NCBI GenBank assembly: GCA_026392115.1
Contig: JAPLCQ010000081.1
Location: 1-64,000, forward strand
Length of the DNA stretch: 64,000 bases
Source: Armatimonadota bacterium
GTDB lineage: Bacteria > Armatimonadota > Chthonomonadetes > Chthonomonadales > CAJBBX01
Reading direction: 5' to 3'
The notes below the pieces were generated by a model. The model saw nothing but the letters and a program-made list of their open reading frames with translations. It ran no database searches and was not told the origin of the DNA. Shown here piece after piece: positions 6,781 to 53,536 of this stretch; the first letter of the stretch is position 1, and the number at the start of each line of letters is the position of its first letter. The translations under genes and the position numbers were made by a program.

Positions 6781-9207
6781 TCAGCGCACCTGAATCACGG
6801 TGAACGAGGTGGGCGGGAAGGTGCGGCGGACCGCGCCGTCCCGCATCTCCTCCTCGGTGGCGATCGGCGCGACGGCATTGGGGTCGGACGCGCTGTTGGC
6901 CGCCTCCAGCGACGCGGCGAGGGTCCGCACCGTGGCGCGCTTGCGACCGCGCAGGCCCTGCACGCGCACGTCGCAGGTGACGGCCTCGCCGGTGCGGTTC
7001 AGCACGCGGACCGTCGTGCGCTTGCCGTCCTCGCTCCTCAGCGCGGTGGCCTCCAGCCCGGCGGCGGTGACCTCGGCCTCCACCAGCAGCGGCTGGGCGG
7101 CCTCGGAGACCATCTGCGTCACCCACCCGGGCGGCTGCAGCCAGACCGAGCGTTGGTTCAGGAAGAGCAGGCCCTGGTCCCAAGCGTTGTCGTTCTGGCC
7201 GTCGGGCTGCAGGCAGTTGGCGCTGGTGACCACGGGCAGGTCCAGCCGCTCGCATACGGCGATGGCCGCGGCGTTGCTCAGCGCCCGGCGCTGGCGGTGG
7301 TTGCCCGAGTTGAACTCGAAGACCGCCACGCGGTGGCGTGCGCCGTCGGCCAGGCGGCCCAGGGCGGCGATGTAGCTGGGCAGCGCCGCCAGGTCGCCTG
7401 AGTCGCCTGGGCCGTCCGTGCCGATGTGGACGTCGAACCAGACCTCGCGGTTGTGCCGCTTGGCCAGCTCCAGGATGGCCCGGTGACCCTCCATGTCGCG
7501 GATGCCCGACGCCGCGCCCGTGATGCGCGCCGGGTCGGTGATGGGGTCGCCGTAGACGAAGTCTCCCACCACGAGGATGATGTCACGGTCCTTGGCCCAG
7601 ATCGCCTCCGCGAGCCGCGCGAAGGTGGCGGCGTAGGCGGCGTCCACGCGCTCCTCGTTGCCCAGCTCCAGGTACTTCAGCCCGAAGGGGCGCCCGCAGC
7701 CGTCCGCCACGCGCCTGCGCCCCCAGGGGCTGTCCGCCGGGCCGTTGGCATACTCGATGAAGTCGGCCATGTCCGTCGGCGTCTCGCCCATGTTGAAGGC
7801 GGGGATGCAGGCGAACCCCTGGGCGCGGCAGAGCGCCATGAAGTCGATGATGCCCCAGCCGTTGCTGGACCACGGATACCAGGTCCCGGCGCAGGGCGGC
7901 CGCAACTCGCGAGGACCGATCATCTTCTTCCACCGGTACTCGGGGTGGTTGATCATGGAGCCGCCGTAGCGCAGCACGGTGACGCCCTGCCGCTTCAGGC
8001 CCTCGGCGACGTCCCGCCGCACGGGGAGGCCCGGCAAGCGGCCCCACGCGCCTGGATGGAGCGCGGCGTGTCCCAGCGTCACCTCGCCGGGCGCGCGCAG
8101 CTCCAGCGTCAGGCGGGCGTCGTCGAGCGCGCGCGCGGGCGTCAGCCGGAAGGTCGTGCGCGGCTTGTCGGGAGTGACCCGGACGCGCGTCTCCGCCGTC
8201 GGGATGCCCCCCGAGCCGCCCTCGAGCGCCACCCAGAGGTCGGTCGGGCTCGTGACACGGGCCAGCAGCACTCCCTCGTAGGGCTTGCCGCCGTCCACAT
8301 GGAGTCCCCAGCGGTTCAGGCCCCGGTTCTCGATGCCCACCGCGCCCTCGCCCGACTCGAAGCGTATCTTCTGGCTCTGGGCGCCGAGCATCGGCTCCCG
8401 GCGCACGAGTTCGAAGCCTCCCTGCGCCGTGCCGCGCACCACCGGCCTCCACATGCGGCTCACGGCCCCCGCCTGTGCGGCCTGCGCCAGAGGCAGCGCC
8501 TGTTCGCGGCCGCCCACCGTGACCCTCAGGTTGCGGTAGCAGGCCGATCGTTGCCACGGGCGCAGGGCCACGCTGCCGGCCGGGAGCGCGTTGGGGCCGT
8601 CGTCGTGCCGCGCCACGTGGCGGCCGTCCACCCAGACATCGAACGCCGAGCCCTCAAGCTTCACCCGCACGCTGATCCACCGCCCCACGGGCGTCGGGCA
8701 GGGGATATCGCCGAAGTGGCGCCAGTCGTGCCTGTGGCGGCCCAGCGTCACCGCCTGCGCCTGGGCGTCCAGCGATACCTCGTAGCCGTCGAACTCATCC
8801 ACTCCGGCGCCTGCGCCCGCCACGCGGAGGATCAGTCCCGCCTTGCCCGGCCCGCCCTCCGGCAGAAGAGTCTCCACGGAGACCTCGCCGTCGCGGAAGG
8901 GCGCCGTGTCGCTCACCAGCTTGAGGCCGTCGGGACCCGAAGCGCGCACCTCGCCGCCTTCCACGCGCCACTCGCCGCCGTAGGCCCGGAACCCGGGGAT
9001 CGCCGCCTGCGGAGCGGGCTCCTGGAAGCTCTCGCCGTAGAGCATCTGGCTGTAGATGCCGCCGTACACCTCGTGGTTCACGTCCTCCAGGCAGGCGCCC
9101 GTAAGGAGGCGCGACACGCGGTGGACCACGCGGTCCGGGTGGACGGTGATGCCCGGTCTCTCGGCCGGCGCGAAGGAAAGCAGTGCCGGCAGCAGTAGCG
9201 CGCCCAT
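6781..9207 (-). CDS. GH51-type alpha-L-arabinofuranosidase with inserted LamG/DUF1080-like domain
   Basis: An 808-residue exported exo-enzyme expected to release arabinose from arabinan or arabinoxylan. The start at 9207 is preceded by TTGAGG and gives a short signal peptide 'MGALLLPALLSFAPAERPG'. The following 'LTGACLEDVNHEVYGGIY' is the standard GH51 N-terminus. Residues ~60-210 form a concanavalin-like insert ('EVSVETLLPEGG', 'WISVRVKLEG', 'DVWVDGRHVARHDDG'). The barrel then carries Asn517-Glu518 in 'LELGNEERV' (acid/base) and Glu631 in 'VAVFEFNSGN' as probable nucleophile. The C-terminal sandwich ends 'SFTVIQVR'. It lies 8 bp after the cysteine-rich gene, so the two form one operon. Confidence 0.85.
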   Translation of the reverse strand: MGALLLPALLSFAPAERPGITVHPDRVVHRVSRLLTGACLEDVNHEVYGGIYSQMLYGESFQEPAPQAAIPGFRAYGGEWRVEGGEVRASGPDGLKLVSDTAPFRDGEVSVETLLPEGGPGKAGLILRVAGAGAGVDEFDGYEVSLDAQAQAVTLGRHRHDWRHFGDIPCPTPVGRWISVRVKLEGSAFDVWVDGRHVARHDDGPNALPAGSVALRPWQRSACYRNLRVTVGGREQALPLAQAAQAGAVSRMWRPVVRGTAQGGFELVRREPMLGAQSQKIRFESGEGAVGIENRGLNRWGLHVDGGKPYEGVLLARVTSPTDLWVALEGGSGGIPTAETRVRVTPDKPRTTFRLTPARALDDARLTLELRAPGEVTLGHAALHPGAWGRLPGLPVRRDVAEGLKRQGVTVLRYGGSMINHPEYRWKKMIGPRELRPPCAGTWYPWSSNGWGIIDFMALCRAQGFACIPAFNMGETPTDMADFIEYANGPADSPWGRRRVADGCGRPFGLKYLELGNEERVDAAYAATFARLAEAIWAKDRDIILVVGDFVYGDPITDPARITGAASGIRDMEGHRAILELAKRHNREVWFDVHIGTDGPGDSGDLAALPSYIAALGRLADGARHRVAVFEFNSGNHRQRRALSNAAAIAVCERLDLPVVTSANCLQPDGQNDNAWDQGLLFLNQRSVWLQPPGWVTQMVSEAAQPLLVEAEVTAAGLEATALRSEDGKRTTVRVLNRTGEAVTCDVRVQGLRGRKRATVRTLAASLEAANSASDPNAVAPIATEEEMRDGAVRRTFPPTSFTVIQVR

Positions 9208-9215
9208 GGCGGACC

Positions 9216-9797
9216 TCAATCCAGAATCTCGAAGTCGAACGAGCAGGGCGACTTGCCGCCGCTGCTCAACGCCGAGGAGCGCACCCAGCCCCGCAGGTGC
9301 CGCCCCAGCGCGAACTGCAGGTGGCGCTTCACGTGGCCCTGGCAGCATTGGCAGTAGGTGACCGACATGGAGGCGCCGGGCGCTCGGATGCAGGAGCATC
9401 GGTACTCCTCCCATTGGCTGGGCTGGAACTCCACGCGGATGCGTCCGTCCGGCTGCATGGCCACCGAATGGCCGAAGACGAACGGCGTTGCGTCGGCTGC
9501 GGCCACGCGCTCCTCGAGCGTGCCTCCGGCCTGGCCGATGGCCTTGCTCAGCTGGAGCCGTTTGCCGCCCAGGCAGCAGGCGCACCGCTCGCGCACCGCC
9601 ACGCGCTGGTTCGCCTCGATCAGCGAGTCCATCCGCTCCATGGCTGTGGCGAACCAGGCGGCCATGGCGTCCGGAGCCGTGTGCGCCGTGAGGGCCTCGC
9701 CGCCGTCGAGTATCTGCTCCGACACGTCGGGCGCCACGCCCTCGCGCTTCAGTGCGGCTGCCAGCCTCTTGATGCGTCCGTCACGGTACTCGGCCAT
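9216..9797 (-). CDS. uncharacterised cysteine-rich protein (193 aa)
   Basis: I do not recognise this with certainty; it resembles small uncharacterised families such as DUF6144. No signal peptide or membrane segment is visible. The N-terminal half is helical ('DGRIKRLAAALKREG', 'AAWFATAMERMDSLIEAN'). It is followed by three cysteine clusters: 'RCACCLGGKRL' near residue 92, 'YRCSCIRAP' near 134, and 'YCQCCQGHVKRHL' near 149. Eight cysteines with a neighbouring His suggest zinc or another metal ligand set. The sequence ends 'PCSFDFEIL'. It is the first gene of a two-gene unit with GH51 (8-bp gap), but nothing in it indicates a carbohydrate role. The ATG at 9797 is the first in frame. Confidence 0.7.
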   Translation of the reverse strand: MAEYRDGRIKRLAAALKREGVAPDVSEQILDGGEALTAHTAPDAMAAWFATAMERMDSLIEANQRVAVRERCACCLGGKRLQLSKAIGQAGGTLEERVAAADATPFVFGHSVAMQPDGRIRVEFQPSQWEEYRCSCIRAPGASMSVTYCQCCQGHVKRHLQFALGRHLRGWVRSSALSSGGKSPCSFDFEILD

Positions 9798-9900
9798 GGT
9801 GCGCCTCCCAATCCCGGTTGCGCCCGATTTCGACGCGGCGCGGCGGGACTCCTGCCGGGAGGTTCGGCGCCATCGTCCGATCAGCAGTTCCCAAAGAGCC

Positions 9901-9928
9901 GCCCCCGGAAGCCGAAGCCTCCGGGGGC
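9901..9928 (-). terminator. GC-rich stem-loop, terminator or attenuator candidate
   Basis: Arms GCCCCCGGA (9901-9909) and TCCGGGGGC (9920-9928) pair perfectly around a 10-nt loop. On the minus strand the hairpin is followed by GGCTCTTTGG, a weak T-rich tail. It could end GH43 transcription or act as an attenuator in the leader of the downstream operon. Confidence 0.45.
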
Positions 9929-10062
9929 GCTGGGTGCGGTTGCGGGTGACGTCGGGATCGTCAGCTCAGGCCGCCCGCCGAGATCACCACGGTGAGGGTG
10001 CCCGAGGCGCCGACAACCGCTGGAACCGGGCCGCCCGTCAGAGCGGCGCGTTCACTGGGCAT

Positions 10063-10091
10063 ATGGTATCAGGTTCAGAGCAAGAGCGCAA
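10063..10091 (-). promoter_or_regulatory. promoter candidate TTGCGC-N17-TACCAT
   Basis: Read on the minus strand, TTGCGC (10091-10086) and TACCAT (10068-10063) are exactly 17 bp apart. The same -35 hexamer and spacing recur before 30531 and 46097. It would drive the 9797/9207 operon. Confidence 0.45.
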
Positions 10092-10200
10092 GCCCTGTCG
10101 GAGTAATGCTGGAGAAGCCGTAAGATCCCCCTGTGCGGCGCGGCGGTCGAGACCTCGCCGCTCTCGGGAGCGCCCGCTCCCGGCGGGCCGTGCGGCTACC

Positions 10201-11145
10201 TCATGGCGCGGGCTCGTCGGTCCCTCGAGACAGGCGCGCGTGGATGACGCCCTGATCGTCGAACCAGAGCGGATCGATGGCGAGGAACCGGTCCCAGTCG
10301 TGCCTGTCCGTGTTCTTCTGGTGGTAGACCAGCCAGAGCCGCTTGTCGGGCCCCGCCACGACGCAGTGGTGCCCCGGCCCGAAGATGCCGCCGCCCCGAT
10401 GGGCGATGGGGTTGCCGGGGTGCTTGACGAAGGGGCCCATGGGCGACTTCGAGGTGGCGTACCCGATGGCGTAGTCCGGGCCCATGGCTCCGCTACCCGA
10501 GTACATCAGGTAGAACGTGCCCTTGCGCTGGATGACCCACGGCCCCTCGGTCACCTCGCCGTCGGCGCGCTCCCAGGGCAGCTCCGGCTTGATGCAGAGG
10601 CGCGGCTCGCCGGTCAGCGTGATCAGGTCCGCCATGGGCGAGACCATGATCCGGAAGCCGCCCGGCAGCATCACGTAGTAGAGGTAGCACTTGCCGTCGT
10701 CGTCGCGCACCAGGTGGGCGTCGATGGCTCCCTCCACCAGCACGCCCTTGTCCACGAACGGCCCCAGCGGACCGCCCGCCACCGCCACGCCCACGAGCTT
10801 GCCGCCCTTCGGGTTGTCGGCGGTGTAGTAGAGGTAGAAGCGCTTGTCGCCCCTGGCGTTGTAGAAGACATCCGGCGCCCATACGCCGCCGCGGGCGTCG
10901 GTGTAGCACTTGCCGCGCGGCGTCCAGTTCACCAGGTCCTTCGAGGTCCAGACGTCGTAGCCCTGGCTATCCAGCGTGGGATACAGGTAGTAGAGCCCCT
11001 TGTAGCGGATGACCGTGGGATCGGCGGCGCCGGGCGCGTTGAGGATCGGGTTGCGGTAGGTCTTCGGCGGCCGGGGCTCGGCGGAGGCGGCGCCGGTCAG
11101 GGCACAGAGCGCCAGGGCGGCGGCAAGGCTCATCGCAAGGGTCAT
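10201..11145 (-). CDS. GH43 glycosidase (arabinanase/xylosidase type)
   Basis: A 314-residue exported five-bladed propeller hydrolase. The signal peptide runs to about residue 22 ('LALCALTGAASA'). The three GH43 acidic residues are visible: base Asp42 in 'GAADPTV', pKa-modulating Asp142 in 'GAIDAHLV' and acid Glu200 in 'GEVTEGPWV'. Other family landmarks are 'YRNPIL', 'DVWTSKDLVNWTP', 'VWAPDVFYN' and 'GPGHHCVV'. Substrate is likely an arabinan, arabinoxylan or xylo-oligosaccharide, and the neighbouring GH51 fits arabinose release. GGAG lies upstream of the ATG at 11145; Met5 (11133) is an alternative. The long gap to the next minus-strand gene suggests a single-gene unit. Confidence 0.88.
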   Translation of the reverse strand: MTLAMSLAAALALCALTGAASAEPRPPKTYRNPILNAPGAADPTVIRYKGLYYLYPTLDSQGYDVWTSKDLVNWTPRGKCYTDARGGVWAPDVFYNARGDKRFYLYYTADNPKGGKLVGVAVAGGPLGPFVDKGVLVEGAIDAHLVRDDDGKCYLYYVMLPGGFRIMVSPMADLITLTGEPRLCIKPELPWERADGEVTEGPWVIQRKGTFYLMYSGSGAMGPDYAIGYATSKSPMGPFVKHPGNPIAHRGGGIFGPGHHCVVAGPDKRLWLVYHQKNTDRHDWDRFLAIDPLWFDDQGVIHARLSRGTDEPAP

Positions 11146-48505: not shown

Positions 48506-49189
48506 TTGGTTATCCGCAGTCTCGCCGCGGCGGGCCTTGCCGCGTTCGCCCTGCTCTTCCTCCTCCGCGCCGACGCCCTGGCGCAGGCTCCCGTCCGCGA
48601 GCACATCGAGTGGAGCCACACCTGGCTCATGGCCGTCAACAGCACGGACAAGCCCCATGTTCTGCTCATCGGCGACTCCATCACCGAGGCGGTCTTCGGG
48701 CGCGTGGAGGCGCGGTTCAAGGAGACGGCCTACCTCTGCAAGCTCACCACCAGCAAGTCGCTGGGCGATCCGCTCCTTTTCGACGAGGTTCGGACCACGC
48801 TGCGGAACACCCACTTCGAGGTGATCCACTTCAACAACGGCATGCACGGCGTGGGCTACACCGAGGCGCAGTACGCCCGCGACTACGCCAGGATGCTGAA
48901 GCTCATCAAGGCCGAGGCCCCGAGGGCCAAGCTGGCGCTCGTGACGACGACCGCCCAGCGGACGCCCGGGCAGTTGGACCGGTTGACCGACTTCAACGAA
49001 CGGATCAAGGTGCGCAACCGCGTGGTCCGCGAACTGGCGGCGAAGAACGGGCTCCTCGTCAACGACCTCTTCGCGCTGGTGGCCGACCGGCAGGACTACA
49101 CCAGCGGCGACGGCACGCACCTCAGCGGCGCCGGCATCGATGCCCAGGCGGACCGCGTCTGCGCCGTCCTCGAGCCCCTCATCAAGTAG
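48506..49189 (+). CDS. SGNH/GDSL hydrolase family protein
   Basis: A 227-residue exported hydrolase. The TTG at 48506 is chosen because GGAG lies 7 nt upstream and it gives the leader 'SLAAAGLAAFALLFLLRADA'. The nucleophile Ser is in 'HVLLIGDSITEAVFG' (block I), Asn in 'IHFNNGMHGVG' (block III-like) and the Asp-His pair in 'SGDGTHLSGAGID' (block V). Members are lipases, esterases or carbohydrate acetyl-esterases; in this glycan-degrading setting deacetylation is attractive but not shown. A TACATT box near 48452 may be its -10. Its last codons are followed immediately by the truncated GH16 frame. Confidence 0.85.
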   Translation: MVIRSLAAAGLAAFALLFLLRADALAQAPVREHIEWSHTWLMAVNSTDKPHVLLIGDSITEAVFGRVEARFKETAYLCKLTTSKSLGDPLLFDEVRTTLRNTHFEVIHFNNGMHGVGYTEAQYARDYARMLKLIKAEAPRAKLALVTTTAQRTPGQLDRLTDFNERIKVRNRVVRELAAKNGLLVNDLFALVADRQDYTSGDGTHLSGAGIDAQADRVCAVLEPLIK

Positions 49190-49820
49190 CCGCGCAGGGC
49201 CGGCGTCGCCCTGCTGGAACGCCCGCCGCGACGGCTGGTGGATGGGGAAGGCCATCGAGTTGGACGGCAATGGCAACCTCGTCATCAACGTCTTCAAGGA
49301 CGGCGACAAGTTCGTCGATGGTTGCGTGCGGACGCGCGGTAAGTTCGAGCACGCCTACGGCTACTACATCGCCCGCGTGAAGATGCACAACCAGCCCGGC
49401 CACTGGCCTGCGTTCTGGCTCTACAACAGCTGCCAGGGCAATCTGGGCAACGGCGGCGTCGACGGGGCGGAGATCGATATCTTCGAGAAGCCGTGGCTCA
49501 CGGACAAGGTGAACTGCGCCATCCACTGGGACGGCTACGGCAAGGAGCACCGGTCCGAGGGTACGCAGGTCGAGGTCCCGGGCATTTCGGAGGGGTGGCA
49601 CACCTATGCGCTCTGGTGGGCCGAAGACACCTACATCTTCTACGCCGACGGCCAGGAGATCTGGCGCAGCGAGGCCGGCGGCATCTGCACCCAGCCGCTC
49701 TACATCAAGCTGAGCGACGAGATCGGCGACTGGGCCGGCGACATCAAGAAGGCCGCCCTGCCCGACAAGTTCATGGTGGACTACGTCCGCGTCTACGACC
49801 TGGTAGAGAAGGGCCGGTAG
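49140..49820 (+). CDS. 5'-truncated GH16 family glycoside hydrolase
   Basis: A GH16 core lacking its N-terminus. The recognisable enzyme starts only at 'NARRDGWWMGKAIELDG' (about 49218) and continues 'KFEHAYGYYIARVKM', 'GHWPAFWLYNSC', the catalytic E-x-D-x-x-E as 'AEIDIFEKP', 'WHTYALWWAEDTYIFYADG' and 'YVRVYDL'. Upstream codons in this frame (49140-49217) are Ser/Ala/Pro-rich and read through the end of the SGNH gene in another frame. No signal peptide and none of the first ~60-80 residues of a GH16 fold are present. The acidic triad is intact, but without the first strands and export it is probably inactive. The first internal ATG is at 49242. Confidence 0.75.
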   Translation: MPRRTASAPSSSPSSSSRAGPASPCWNARRDGWWMGKAIELDGNGNLVINVFKDGDKFVDGCVRTRGKFEHAYGYYIARVKMHNQPGHWPAFWLYNSCQGNLGNGGVDGAEIDIFEKPWLTDKVNCAIHWDGYGKEHRSEGTQVEVPGISEGWHTYALWWAEDTYIFYADGQEIWRSEAGGICTQPLYIKLSDEIGDWAGDIKKAALPDKFMVDYVRVYDLVEKGR

Positions 49821-49868: not shown

Positions 49869-52268
49869 ATGTCACCCAACCTGCCCCTTGGAAACTGGGG
49901 CGCCCCGCCTGCCGCGTCGGTGTGCGTCTGGGGTATAGACCTGGGTACCACCAACTCTACAGTAGCCGAGGCGGTCTGGGAGCCCGGTGCGGATATGCCC
50001 ACGTGCCGCTGCCTCGACATTGACCAGCAGACCCCCGACGGTGTCTTCACAAGTCCGCTGGTGCCCTCGGTGGTCGCGTTGCTGAAGCAGGGCGGCCACT
50101 GGGTGGGAGAAGGCGCCAAGCGGCTCCGCGCACGGGCGAAGGAAAACGGAGTCGTCATCGAGCAGACCCTGTTCCAGAACACCAAGAACGACATGGGCCT
50201 GATGAAGACCTACCACCGGGCGCCCGAAGCGTACGGCCATGCCTCGCGTATCGGCGGTCACGTTCTGCGGTTGCTGCGCGATGGCGCACGCGAGGCGTCC
50301 AACCGTGAAGGCGCCCATTTGACGGTCACCGTACCGGCCTCCTTTCTCCTGACGCAACGGAGCGATACACTGGACGCCGGCCGGTTCGCCGAGCTTCCCG
50401 TGGGCCACAACGACCTGCTGGACGAGCCCATCGCCGCGCTTATCGACTATCTCATGAGCCACCCGGGCTGCGGTGCAGAGCCGGGCAGACCGATTACCGC
50501 GGTGGTCTTCGACTTCGGCGGAGGGACATGCGATGTCTGTGTGGCGGAGATCGCGCTTGCGACAGCCCGTGCGCCCCTGACTGTCAGCTACCGCTCTGTG
50601 TCGCGCTACTGCCGCCTGGGCGGCTGCGATATCGACACGGCCGTCGTCCATGACGTTCTCATACCCGCGCTCTGCCGGGAGCAGGGCATGGAGCCCTCAG
50701 ACTTGACCTGGTCGGAGAGGCGCCGTATCCTGGAACCGCAGATGCTGGGCACGGCCGAAGCCCTGAAGGTGGGCCTCTGCGCCGAGATTGACAGGCTGAC
50801 CAAGTTTGGCCGCTACGACCAGGCCGACAAGGCGCAAACCGTCGTCCACCAGCCCGCCATGGAATGCTCGGTGGGGCGGCGAACATACCGTCTCACGTCG
50901 CCATCCCTGTCGGCGGAGCAGTGGGAGGCGCTACTGGAGCCCTTCGTGCAATCGGATCGCCTCTACCCGGTGGACAGCGAATATGGCCAGTCCCAGTCCA
51001 TCTTCGCACCAATATCGGACGGGCTAGACAGGGCGGGCCTGAGCCCGCGGGACGTGGATGTCTGCCTGCTGACCGGCGGCAGTTCACTCATCCCGCAGGT
51101 TCGAGACGCCGTGGGCCGGCACCTGGGCGGCGCCACGATCTGGAGCTACACCGACGATGTTGCGAACCAGAGCGCTGTGGCCCGCGGCGCGGCATGGCAC
51201 GCCCTGCACATGGCACTCACGGGAAGGCCGCTCGTGCAGCCCGTCACCAACGAAGGCGTGGCCATCCGCACGAGCGATGGCGGCGCGTTCGCGCTGGCGC
51301 CCCTCGGGAGCCGGTTGCCCTACCCCGAAGGCGGCGACTGGCAGCGCTATCCCGGCGCGCTGGCGGTGCCGGCCAACCATGGCGGGGAGATCAAGGTCGA
51401 GTTGGTGACCGAGAGGACTGGACAGGTCATCATGACGCGCAGATGGAGCATCCCGCCCGCCACGCGCGTCGGCGCCCGCATCGATCTGGCGGTTCAGCTC
51501 TCCGCCGCGCAGGAGCTCCAGCTACAGGCCAACTTGAGCAACTGCCCCGATGCCCGGCTCGAAGCCATGACGAGCCACCCGCTGATCACCGTGGTCTCGC
51601 CGCACCCGGCCCGCGAAGCCGTCGAGCGCATCGAGCAGGAGATCCGCTCCAGGGAAGTGGACCCGGTGCGCGACCGCGAATTGTATCTCGACTTGGCCCG
51701 AAACTACGGCGAGCTGAACCACTTGGAGCACGCCGTCGAGGTCCTGCACTTCCTGATCAGCCGGCTGGGTCGGGCGGACGGCACCGCGTTGCTGCTTCAG
51801 GGCATCTACTTCGGCCGCCTGGGCGACACCAAGCGAGAAGTGCAGGCCTACCGCGAGTGCCTCCGCGCCTTCCCCGCCATCACGGCGGCGGCGTTCAACC
51901 TGGCACTGAGCCTGCATCACGCAGGTCAGCAAGCGGAGGCGCTCGACTGCATTGACCAGGCTCTGGCGCGATCCGGTGCCGACGGTCCATACGTCACGCT
52001 CCGGGCGTGCATCCTCCGCTCGATGGACCGCGCCGATGAAGCCGAACGGGCATTCAGGCAAGCACTTCGGTCCTTCCCGGAACCAGATGCCTGCGACCCA
52101 TACGAACTGAGCTGGCTACTTCACTGCGCCGAGCAAGTCGGAGACCGCAACGTTCAGAAACGGGCCCGCGCGGCGCGCAAAGCAGACGGCAAGCCGGGGG
52201 ACGATGACCCGTCGCAGTCCGGTGCGTTGCCAGCCAGAGTGGTGGCAGATGCCGGGGGCGCCCAGTGA
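49869..52268 (+). CDS. Hsp70-like ATPase with C-terminal TPR repeats
   Basis: A 799-residue cytoplasmic protein. The actin/Hsp70 ATPase fold is clear: phosphate-1 'GIDLGTTNS' at residues 23-31, phosphate-2 'VFDFGGGTCDVCV' near 214-226, adenosine motif 'CLLTGGSSLIPQVRDA' near 399. Residues ~440-590 look like a divergent beta substrate-binding domain ('VTNEGVAIRTSDGG', 'RVGARIDLAVQL'). Residues ~610-770 are TPR-like ('YLDLARNYGELNHLEHAVEV', 'FNLALSLHHAGQQAEALDC', 'DRADEAERAFRQALRSFP'). The ordinary DnaK lid and C-terminal EEVD-like end are absent. AGGAGG precedes the ATG. The stop overlaps the helicase start (ATGA), so the two are coupled. It is not a housekeeping dnaK. Confidence 0.88.
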   Translation: MSPNLPLGNWGAPPAASVCVWGIDLGTTNSTVAEAVWEPGADMPTCRCLDIDQQTPDGVFTSPLVPSVVALLKQGGHWVGEGAKRLRARAKENGVVIEQTLFQNTKNDMGLMKTYHRAPEAYGHASRIGGHVLRLLRDGAREASNREGAHLTVTVPASFLLTQRSDTLDAGRFAELPVGHNDLLDEPIAALIDYLMSHPGCGAEPGRPITAVVFDFGGGTCDVCVAEIALATARAPLTVSYRSVSRYCRLGGCDIDTAVVHDVLIPALCREQGMEPSDLTWSERRRILEPQMLGTAEALKVGLCAEIDRLTKFGRYDQADKAQTVVHQPAMECSVGRRTYRLTSPSLSAEQWEALLEPFVQSDRLYPVDSEYGQSQSIFAPISDGLDRAGLSPRDVDVCLLTGGSSLIPQVRDAVGRHLGGATIWSYTDDVANQSAVARGAAWHALHMALTGRPLVQPVTNEGVAIRTSDGGAFALAPLGSRLPYPEGGDWQRYPGALAVPANHGGEIKVELVTERTGQVIMTRRWSIPPATRVGARIDLAVQLSAAQELQLQANLSNCPDARLEAMTSHPLITVVSPHPAREAVERIEQEIRSREVDPVRDRELYLDLARNYGELNHLEHAVEVLHFLISRLGRADGTALLLQGIYFGRLGDTKREVQAYRECLRAFPAITAAAFNLALSLHHAGQQAEALDCIDQALARSGADGPYVTLRACILRSMDRADEAERAFRQALRSFPEPDACDPYELSWLLHCAEQVGDRNVQKRARAARKADGKPGDDDPSQSGALPARVVADAGGAQ

Positions 52269-53536
52269 GCGCCGCCACGTTCCTGGCTCCCTTCGGCGAC
52301 CTGACGCCGGAACAGCGTCGAGTGGTCACAGCCGACATGAACGGCCATCGCGTCATCTTTGGGCCGCCAGGGTCCGGCAAGACACTGGTGCTCATCCATC
52401 GGGCGGCACACCTCGCGGCCCGCCATCGCGTCGATCCGGCGGACTACCGCGTCGTCGTCTTCACCAACGTGCTGAAGGACTACATAAGGGCCGGCCTCGA
52501 CTTCCTGGGTATCCCGATCGAAACGGTTACGACCTTCGACTCGCTCTGCCAGGGGCTCTACACCGACCATATTGGGCGACGCGTCCCGCGGGATGAAGAG
52601 AACCACCGTCCCGACTTCGATGCCATTCGCCGAGCCGTGTTCCGAATGCTGAAGCAGACGCCTGCCGTGCAGGGCTCGCTGGCGTTTGTGGTCGTGGACG
52701 AGGGGCAGGACCTGACGCGCGAGGCCTACGCCATCCTAGGCCTCGTGGCCAAGCATGTGACGGTGTTTGCCGATCCAAAGCAACGCATCTTCAGCGGAGG
52801 CGCTTCGGAGGCGCAGATGCTAGCAGGGCTGGGTCTACAGCGGCGGAGCGGAGCCATGCTGGCCGCCTTCCGAAACTCGCCTGATGTCGGCCGGCTGGCG
52901 GCCTGGTTCATTGCCGACAAGGGTGACCGGGTCGAGTACCTGGCGCAGATCAGGAATATCAGCGTTCCGCGAGAGAGACCACTGCTTTACCTGGCCGCCT
53001 CGATGGAGGACGAGGCCGAACGGCTCGCAGCGGCCATACGCCAACGGCAGAGTCTGAACCAGCGCGTAGGCATCATCGTGCCCCGCAGTAACGCCGTCTA
53101 CGGCCTATCGAACGCCCTCGCAGCGCGAGGCGTGGCGGTCGAACGGGCGGTGCCCCCATCGCGGCGGGGTGACTCGACATGGACCGGGGTTCGGTTCGAC
53201 ACGGCGGCGCCGAAGATAGCCACATACCACAGCGCCAAGGGGCTCACCTTCGATGCCGTCCTCCTGCCTCGCCTAACGCGCGGCGCCTTCCGGCACGGCG
53301 AGGGGAAAGACGACGTGGTGCGCCTGCTCTTTGTCGGCATCTCACGGGCCACCCAGTGGGTCTATCTCAGCACGGAGGAGGGGAACGAGCTGTCCGAGTT
53401 GGACCTGCTCCACAAGGCCGCCGGCGAGGGGCAACTGGTGCTGCAGCGCCACAGCGACAAGGGCTCGACCCGAACGGGGCCGGCTCCGAGCGGCGACGAT
53501 GATGAGGACGACGAAGAGGAAATCTCGCTCTTCTAG
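52265..53536 (+). CDS. compact UvrD/RecB-like superfamily I helicase
   Basis: A 423-residue ATPase. Motif Q/I is 'LTPEQRRVV' and Walker A 'GPPGSGKT' (33-40). Walker B is 'VVVDEGQDL' (Asp-Glu at 145-146), motif III 'FADPKQRIF' (Gln173-Arg174), motif IV-like 'AFRNSPDVG', motif V 'TYHSAKGLTFDAVLLP' (320-335) and motif VI 'LLFVGISRATQWVYL' with Arg361. It lacks the large 1B/2B insertions of UvrD/Rep, so it is closer in size to the helicase GajB of Gabija-type defence. The tail is acidic ('GDDDEDDEEEISLF'). It overlaps the Hsp70/TPR gene by 4 nt. No nuclease domain is seen, so the Hsp70-like partner probably supplies sensing or regulation. Confidence 0.9.
   Translation: MSAATFLAPFGDLTPEQRRVVTADMNGHRVIFGPPGSGKTLVLIHRAAHLAARHRVDPADYRVVVFTNVLKDYIRAGLDFLGIPIETVTTFDSLCQGLYTDHIGRRVPRDEENHRPDFDAIRRAVFRMLKQTPAVQGSLAFVVVDEGQDLTREAYAILGLVAKHVTVFADPKQRIFSGGASEAQMLAGLGLQRRSGAMLAAFRNSPDVGRLAAWFIADKGDRVEYLAQIRNISVPRERPLLYLAASMEDEAERLAAAIRQRQSLNQRVGIIVPRSNAVYGLSNALAARGVAVERAVPPSRRGDSTWTGVRFDTAAPKIATYHSAKGLTFDAVLLPRLTRGAFRHGEGKDDVVRLLFVGISRATQWVYLSTEEGNELSELDLLHKAAGEGQLVLQRHSDKGSTRTGPAPSGDDDEDDEEEISLF

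Follow-up and report, generated by a model that had tools for sequence, protein, structure and literature searches.

Two kinds of protein that concern us here, small UvrD-like helicases and Hsp70-like ATPases, already have a place in described or predicted bacterial defence systems. Gabija pairs the helicase GajB with GajA, an OLD-family ATPase/TOPRIM nuclease, and a GajB-like UvrD helicase, ArmD, belongs to the experimentally tested, multi-gene ARMADA system (PMC12458937). In CoCoNuT (PMC11090510), McrB-type GTPases are the partners of CnuD, an Hsp70-like protein with HEAT-like repeats whose ATPase motifs are degenerate. The CoCoNuT Hsp70s, with their degenerate ATPase sites, are predicted to bind RNA. 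We analyzed a 64,000-nt stretch of an Armatimonadota genome (contig JAPLCQ010000081.1, positions 1 to 64,000; hereafter the window), in which two adjoining forward-strand genes encode an Hsp70-like protein with tetratricopeptide repeats (Hsp70-TPR; 49869..52268, 799 aa, ATG start) and a compact superfamily 1 (SF1) UvrD-type helicase (52265..53536, 423 aa, GTG start). The two genes are a real, conserved and mobile unit. Because they move jointly among distantly related bacteria and are found on plasmids, on virus-like contigs and next to restriction genes, they probably belong to bacterial immunity as a component that has not been named.

The original prediction of an undescribed two-gene system depended on the genes being neighbors elsewhere. 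We surveyed 291 genomes of the phylum, the one phylum in which whole genomes were sampled, at E <= 1e-20 for the helicase family and E <= 1e-30 for the Hsp70 family. The helicase family is present in 8/291 genomes and the Hsp70 family in 12/291, and in all eight helicase-bearing genomes, which span four families, the Hsp70 gene lies directly upstream of the helicase gene. The junction is a 4-nt overlap in five of these genomes, a 1-nt overlap in two and a 3-nt gap in one, and the two genes are probably translationally coupled. In the window, both open reading frames lie precisely where the prediction had put them, and the stop and start codons overlap in the sequence GTGA (52265..52268, forward strand). 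Comparison with a congener, G028, gives dN/dS (nonsynonymous to synonymous substitution ratio) values of 0.14 and 0.12 for the two genes, indicating purifying selection on both. Adjacency in eight genomes and purifying selection together confirm that the pair is not a chance arrangement.

The Hsp70-TPR protein matches the Pfam HSP70 family (1e-21) and several TPR models, and 13 homologues show little or no variation in its phosphate-1 (GIDLGTT), phosphate-2 (DFGGGTCD) and adenosine (GGSS) motifs, in agreement with the three ATPase motifs and C-terminal TPR array first read from the sequence. The protein had also been described as having no DnaK lid, which holds for the alpha lid and not for the rest of the substrate-binding region. 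A profile of the 13 family members aligns with DnaK structures over the ATPase domain and then over the beta substrate-binding domain (profile positions 379-603 on 2v7y). Since this match runs past the ATPase domain through the beta domain, the architecture is correctly described as a nucleotide-binding domain (residues ~20-445), a beta substrate-binding-like domain (~445-570) and a TPR array (~580-772), with the TPRs in place of the alpha lid, the sole missing part. In an AlphaFold model, residues ~580-772 form a TPR-like helical array with good confidence, the remainder being poorly modeled (mean pLDDT, the predicted local distance difference test score, 53 with three sequences). One of the TPRs has a well-conserved asparagine; a complete eukaryotic-style clamp, of the kind that binds EEVD-like tails, could not be made out by eye and is at most hypothetical. 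The protein scores 89.5 bits against a DnaK equivalog cut-off of 648, and none of the PADLOC models covers it.

The helicase carries both the N- and C-terminal UvrD Pfam domains above cut-off, the match beginning at residue 13. The Q motif is conserved, as are motifs I-VI, and the Walker A sequence is GPPGSGKT, in keeping with the 423-residue SF1 enzyme that had been predicted to overlap the Hsp70 gene by 4 nt and to end in an acidic tail. It is of the SF1A type, retains the 1A/2A core and has no 2B domain: it aligns with PcrA in three blocks that skip PcrA residues 107-185 (mostly 1B) and 382-555 (2B). PcrA and UvrD rank first in a Foldseek search with the helicase model, with Schlafen helicases not far below, and the UvrD/PcrA/Rep equivalog cut-offs are missed by more than 800 bits. 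A contig search with the single protein recovered only a PcrA-type helicase from Lachnospiraceae, and a viral scan with the helicase alignment returned mostly generic UvrD and NERD-UvrD proteins. The ~50 residues at the C-terminal end are acidic, and confidence in the model is low there; the tail (codons at 53474..53533, forward strand) ends in DDDEDDEEEISLF. Acidic residues with a terminal F or L close 8 of 9 family helicases and none of 126 neighboring proteins, a contrast drawn post hoc, after the sequences had been inspected. The endings (ISLF, VSLF, DELFF, IDDLF, DELDFL) resemble both a tip like that of single-stranded DNA-binding protein (SSB) and a clamp-binding motif; the host SSB reads DPFGDE at its end, and we therefore make neither claim for the tail. 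In one genome (G049; L021 2524-3238) an in-frame stop breaks the helicase gene of the pair and the Hsp70 gene stays open.

The distribution of the pair is patchy: it is absent from most close relatives, and its local contexts vary between genera, even inside the one genus (g9) in which the Hsp70 gene occurs by itself. A housekeeping PcrA or DnaK paralogue is rejected on the missed cut-offs, the missing domains and this patchiness. The same pattern bears on a cellular role in DNA metabolism or stress, in which a specialized chaperone would load or recycle a helicase at stalled forks. Such a device would fit an Hsp70 whose ATPase motifs and beta substrate domain are intact and which, at two loci, has general chaperone genes nearby; we nonetheless think it improbable for genes found in only 12/291 genomes and missing from most close relatives, with contexts that change from genus to genus and carriage on plasmids and viral contigs.

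Evidence for mobility comes from within the phylum and from distant bacteria. The flanking genes are shared by a second congener, G029 (L078; 86-91% DNA identity, by eye), which has no pair; the slot holds instead genes for a secreted enzyme, a response-regulator-like protein and a sensor-kinase-like protein, unrelated to the pair. Farther away, the pair occurs on a Persicobacter (Bacteroidota) plasmid, with cas1 about 10 kb off, and on an Antarctobacter (Alphaproteobacteria) plasmid, where insertion sequences flank it on both sides; profile comparison confirms both as homologous (hhalign probability 97.9-99.6). An IMG/VR contig (L068) encodes an Hsp70 39% identical to that of the window, followed immediately by the first helicase codons and adjoined by a CI-like repressor. 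On another contig (L069) a gene for an Hsp70-TPR protein with a weak N-terminal HEPN_Swt1-like match (7668-10325) lies behind phage tail genes, and its product carries an RNRYAH motif that recalls the RNRHAH of the Antarctobacter protein (Hsp70-TPR on the plasmid, L041 7446-12877), where the motif accompanies a weak N-terminal HEPN_Swt1 match (E 0.0015). The genes behind the helicase in Antarctobacter, Persicobacter, Deinococcus and Rhizobium are unknown genes, mutually dissimilar by blastp and hhalign, with no counterpart in the window, and a constant third gene is therefore rejected.

Genes carried in this way might instead serve the element itself, in plasmid or prophage replication, in maintenance or in the exclusion of rivals. 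ParA/ParB genes near the pair on both plasmids, pPP6 and pSMS3-3, and the repressor beside it on L068 are what such a role would predict. Most copies, though, are chromosomal, with neither integrase nor replication genes seen next to them, and the copy in the window is under purifying selection, so that we regard service to the element as quite unlikely, more so than any other alternative weighed here.

Some copies have defence-type neighbors. In G217 an Eco57I-type methylase, a PLD+SNF2 helicase (PADLOC 'HKD+Snf2' 8e-84, DrmD-like 8e-36), the Hsp70 and the compact helicase follow one another on a single strand. In G219 the order is a ResIII-type protein, an S23-like protein, a type III methylase (1015 bits), the Hsp70 and the helicase, the methylase and Hsp70 genes being ~43 nt apart. 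Of six independent loci in the phylum, two thus have restriction-type genes directly upstream of the pair. These genomes are poor in methylase genes, and the chance that at least two of six independent loci would have one within 6 kb is P = 0.008. The expectation that the pair would lie outside housekeeping operons was borne out, its contexts elsewhere being defence-like.

The same linkage invites an accessory role, in which the helicase would pump or unwind DNA for a partner nuclease of a restriction or DISARM-like system and the Hsp70 would assemble or recycle the restriction complex. The operon-like arrangements in G217 and G219 suit this account, as do the related helicases that occupy the slot after DrmB in DISARM-like operons; set against it, most copies, including that of the window, have no restriction gene nearby, and on the plasmids the only companion of the pair is an unknown third gene. 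We hold it to be a possible though unlikely explanation.

On balance, we slightly favor a horizontally mobile two-gene module of immune type, in which the chaperone ATPase controls the minimal helicase; the genomic context makes a defence role for the pair somewhat the more probable assignment. DnaK classically remodels the replication-initiator complexes of phages and plasmids, and TPR domains frequently bind acidic C-terminal tails. Taken with the conserved acidic tail of the helicase, these properties suggest that the helicase is kept bound to Hsp70-TPR and set free once a protein complex of an invader is encountered. Hsp70-TPR would act as sensor and gate, its beta domain binding an exposed segment of an invading protein assembly such as a phage replication-initiation complex, and the TPR array would retain the helicase, probably through the acidic tail. 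ATP-driven release could then load the helicase onto single-stranded DNA of the invader, where it might stall or strip replication, or open the DNA to a nuclease supplied by a partner system. Candidate partners are the restriction enzymes present at some loci and the fused HEPN-like domain in Antarctobacter. A bolder version is doubtful, yet worth stating: the pair may represent an unrecognized class of immunity in which an Hsp70 senses a phage or plasmid complex as its client and frees a minimal helicase through its TPRs, with interchangeable effectors (the bare helicase, restriction enzymes or a fused HEPN domain). Hsp70 proteins are known as helpers of phage. If the proposal is correct, an active-looking Hsp70 that constantly accompanies a defence-type helicase would offer cells a new means of sensing phage, and the module is small (two genes, 3.7 kb) and therefore easily tested in a laboratory host.

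Several observations weigh against the immune module. Four of the six independent phylum loci, the window among them, have no adjoining restriction gene. The neighbors of the pair in the window look glycan-related or glycosyltransferase-like, as judged by eye. Four genomes of genus g9 (G038-G041; L033, L034, L035, L036) carry the Hsp70 and no helicase, which is therefore dispensable there. In G040 and G219 the Hsp70 gene has GroESL or a DnaK-DnaJ cluster in its vicinity, and the HEPN_Swt1 match is under Pfam's cut-off.

Some further features of these loci are of interest in their own right. In genus g9, where the helicase is missing, the Hsp70-TPR proteins carry at their C-terminus an acidic-aromatic tip (DDFSF, EEDFSF, EDYFIW) that resembles the one of the helicase. 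In the window, the G+C content of the pair (65-69%) is not distinct from that of the rest of the sequence, and the pair has no nuclease gene of its own. Upstream, 178 bp containing the start and signal peptide of a GH16-like gene are present in G028 and G029 and missing at window position 49218/49219; the open reading frame at 49140-49820 is thus probably what is left of a gene truncated at its 5' end.

Comparison with known systems places the pair near several of them and inside none that is named: the pair is unnamed in PADLOC-DB, in NCBIfam and in the literature searched, whose coverage is incomplete, in line with the original prediction, which knew of no named system with this exact composition. 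The prediction had drawn a parallel to Gabija, and the likeness is that of a two-gene unit with a small UvrD-like helicase. Our helicase, which is GajB-like and no more, gives partial matches to many PADLOC GajB models (best 3.3e-18), and its family profile matches GajB structures at 3e-18 and PcrA more strongly, at 1e-32. The parallel ends at the partner: the sole adjacent gene encodes the Hsp70-TPR ATPase and not GajA, and since the unit has no GajA-type nuclease it is not Gabija. The best PADLOC match of the helicase is NERD+UvrD (C3a187, 5.5e-22), which covers the helicase part only, the NERD nuclease domain being absent from our protein. Compared with ArmD of ARMADA, the helicase begins at its Q motif, without the RelE-like N-terminal domain, and the YprA-like helicase and PglX-like methylase of that system were not seen beside it in the window. 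The UvrD, PcrA and Rep enzymes have a 1A-1B-2A-2B organization of ~650-750 aa, in contrast to the 423 aa here, of which nothing matches PcrA 382-555.

On the chaperone side, Hsp70-TPR shares with DnaK the ATPase and beta substrate-binding domains and differs in having a TPR array for a lid and no adjoining gene for a J-protein or GrpE. CoCoNuT (CnuD/CnuCD) likewise, in a predicted defence system, joins a helical-repeat partner domain to an ATPase and a substrate domain of Hsp70 type (PMC11090510). The pair differs in its intact ATPase motifs, its TPR repeats and its SF1 helicase partner, and no McrB-like GTPase with a coiled-coil CnuB/CnuC partner was seen beside it, its neighbors having been read by eye rather than scanned with profiles.

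The helicase itself has its closest counterparts in other operons. Compact helicases related to it over nearly their whole length are preceded by DrmA-DrmB in Deinococcus, by a helicase-DrmB pair in Streptomyces and by a protein kinase in Rhizobium. The DISARM-like operons at L040 3264-12839 and L039 7035-13092 have a compact UvrD-type helicase, which to our knowledge is not a component of classical DISARM. In the Deinococcus gobiensis P4 and Streptomyces fungicidicus p1 operons, a homologous helicase of similar size directly follows DrmB; the first components there are DrmA-DrmB rather than Hsp70-TPR, and the Deinococcus locus has an extra unknown gene after the helicase. Neither DrmA nor DrmB (DUF1998) was seen beside the pair in the window or, as far as these were read, at the other phylum loci. 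On the Rhizobium plasmid (L043 6562-10491), a kinase replaces the Hsp70 in a row with the helicase and an unknown gene. A faecal phage-labelled contig (L042 6717-11326) carries a compact helicase between a methyltransferase-like gene and an unknown gene of 769 aa, possibly another variant of a helicase cassette. In a tree of these helicases, whose deeper order is unsure on account of long branches, the seven phylum helicases form one group, and the two DISARM helicases with a provirus copy (L048) form another, apart from the PcrA-type group. The Hsp70 pair, the DISARM-like operons and the kinase-led operon thus appear to have this helicase in common, which suggests a compact-helicase cassette used by several systems.
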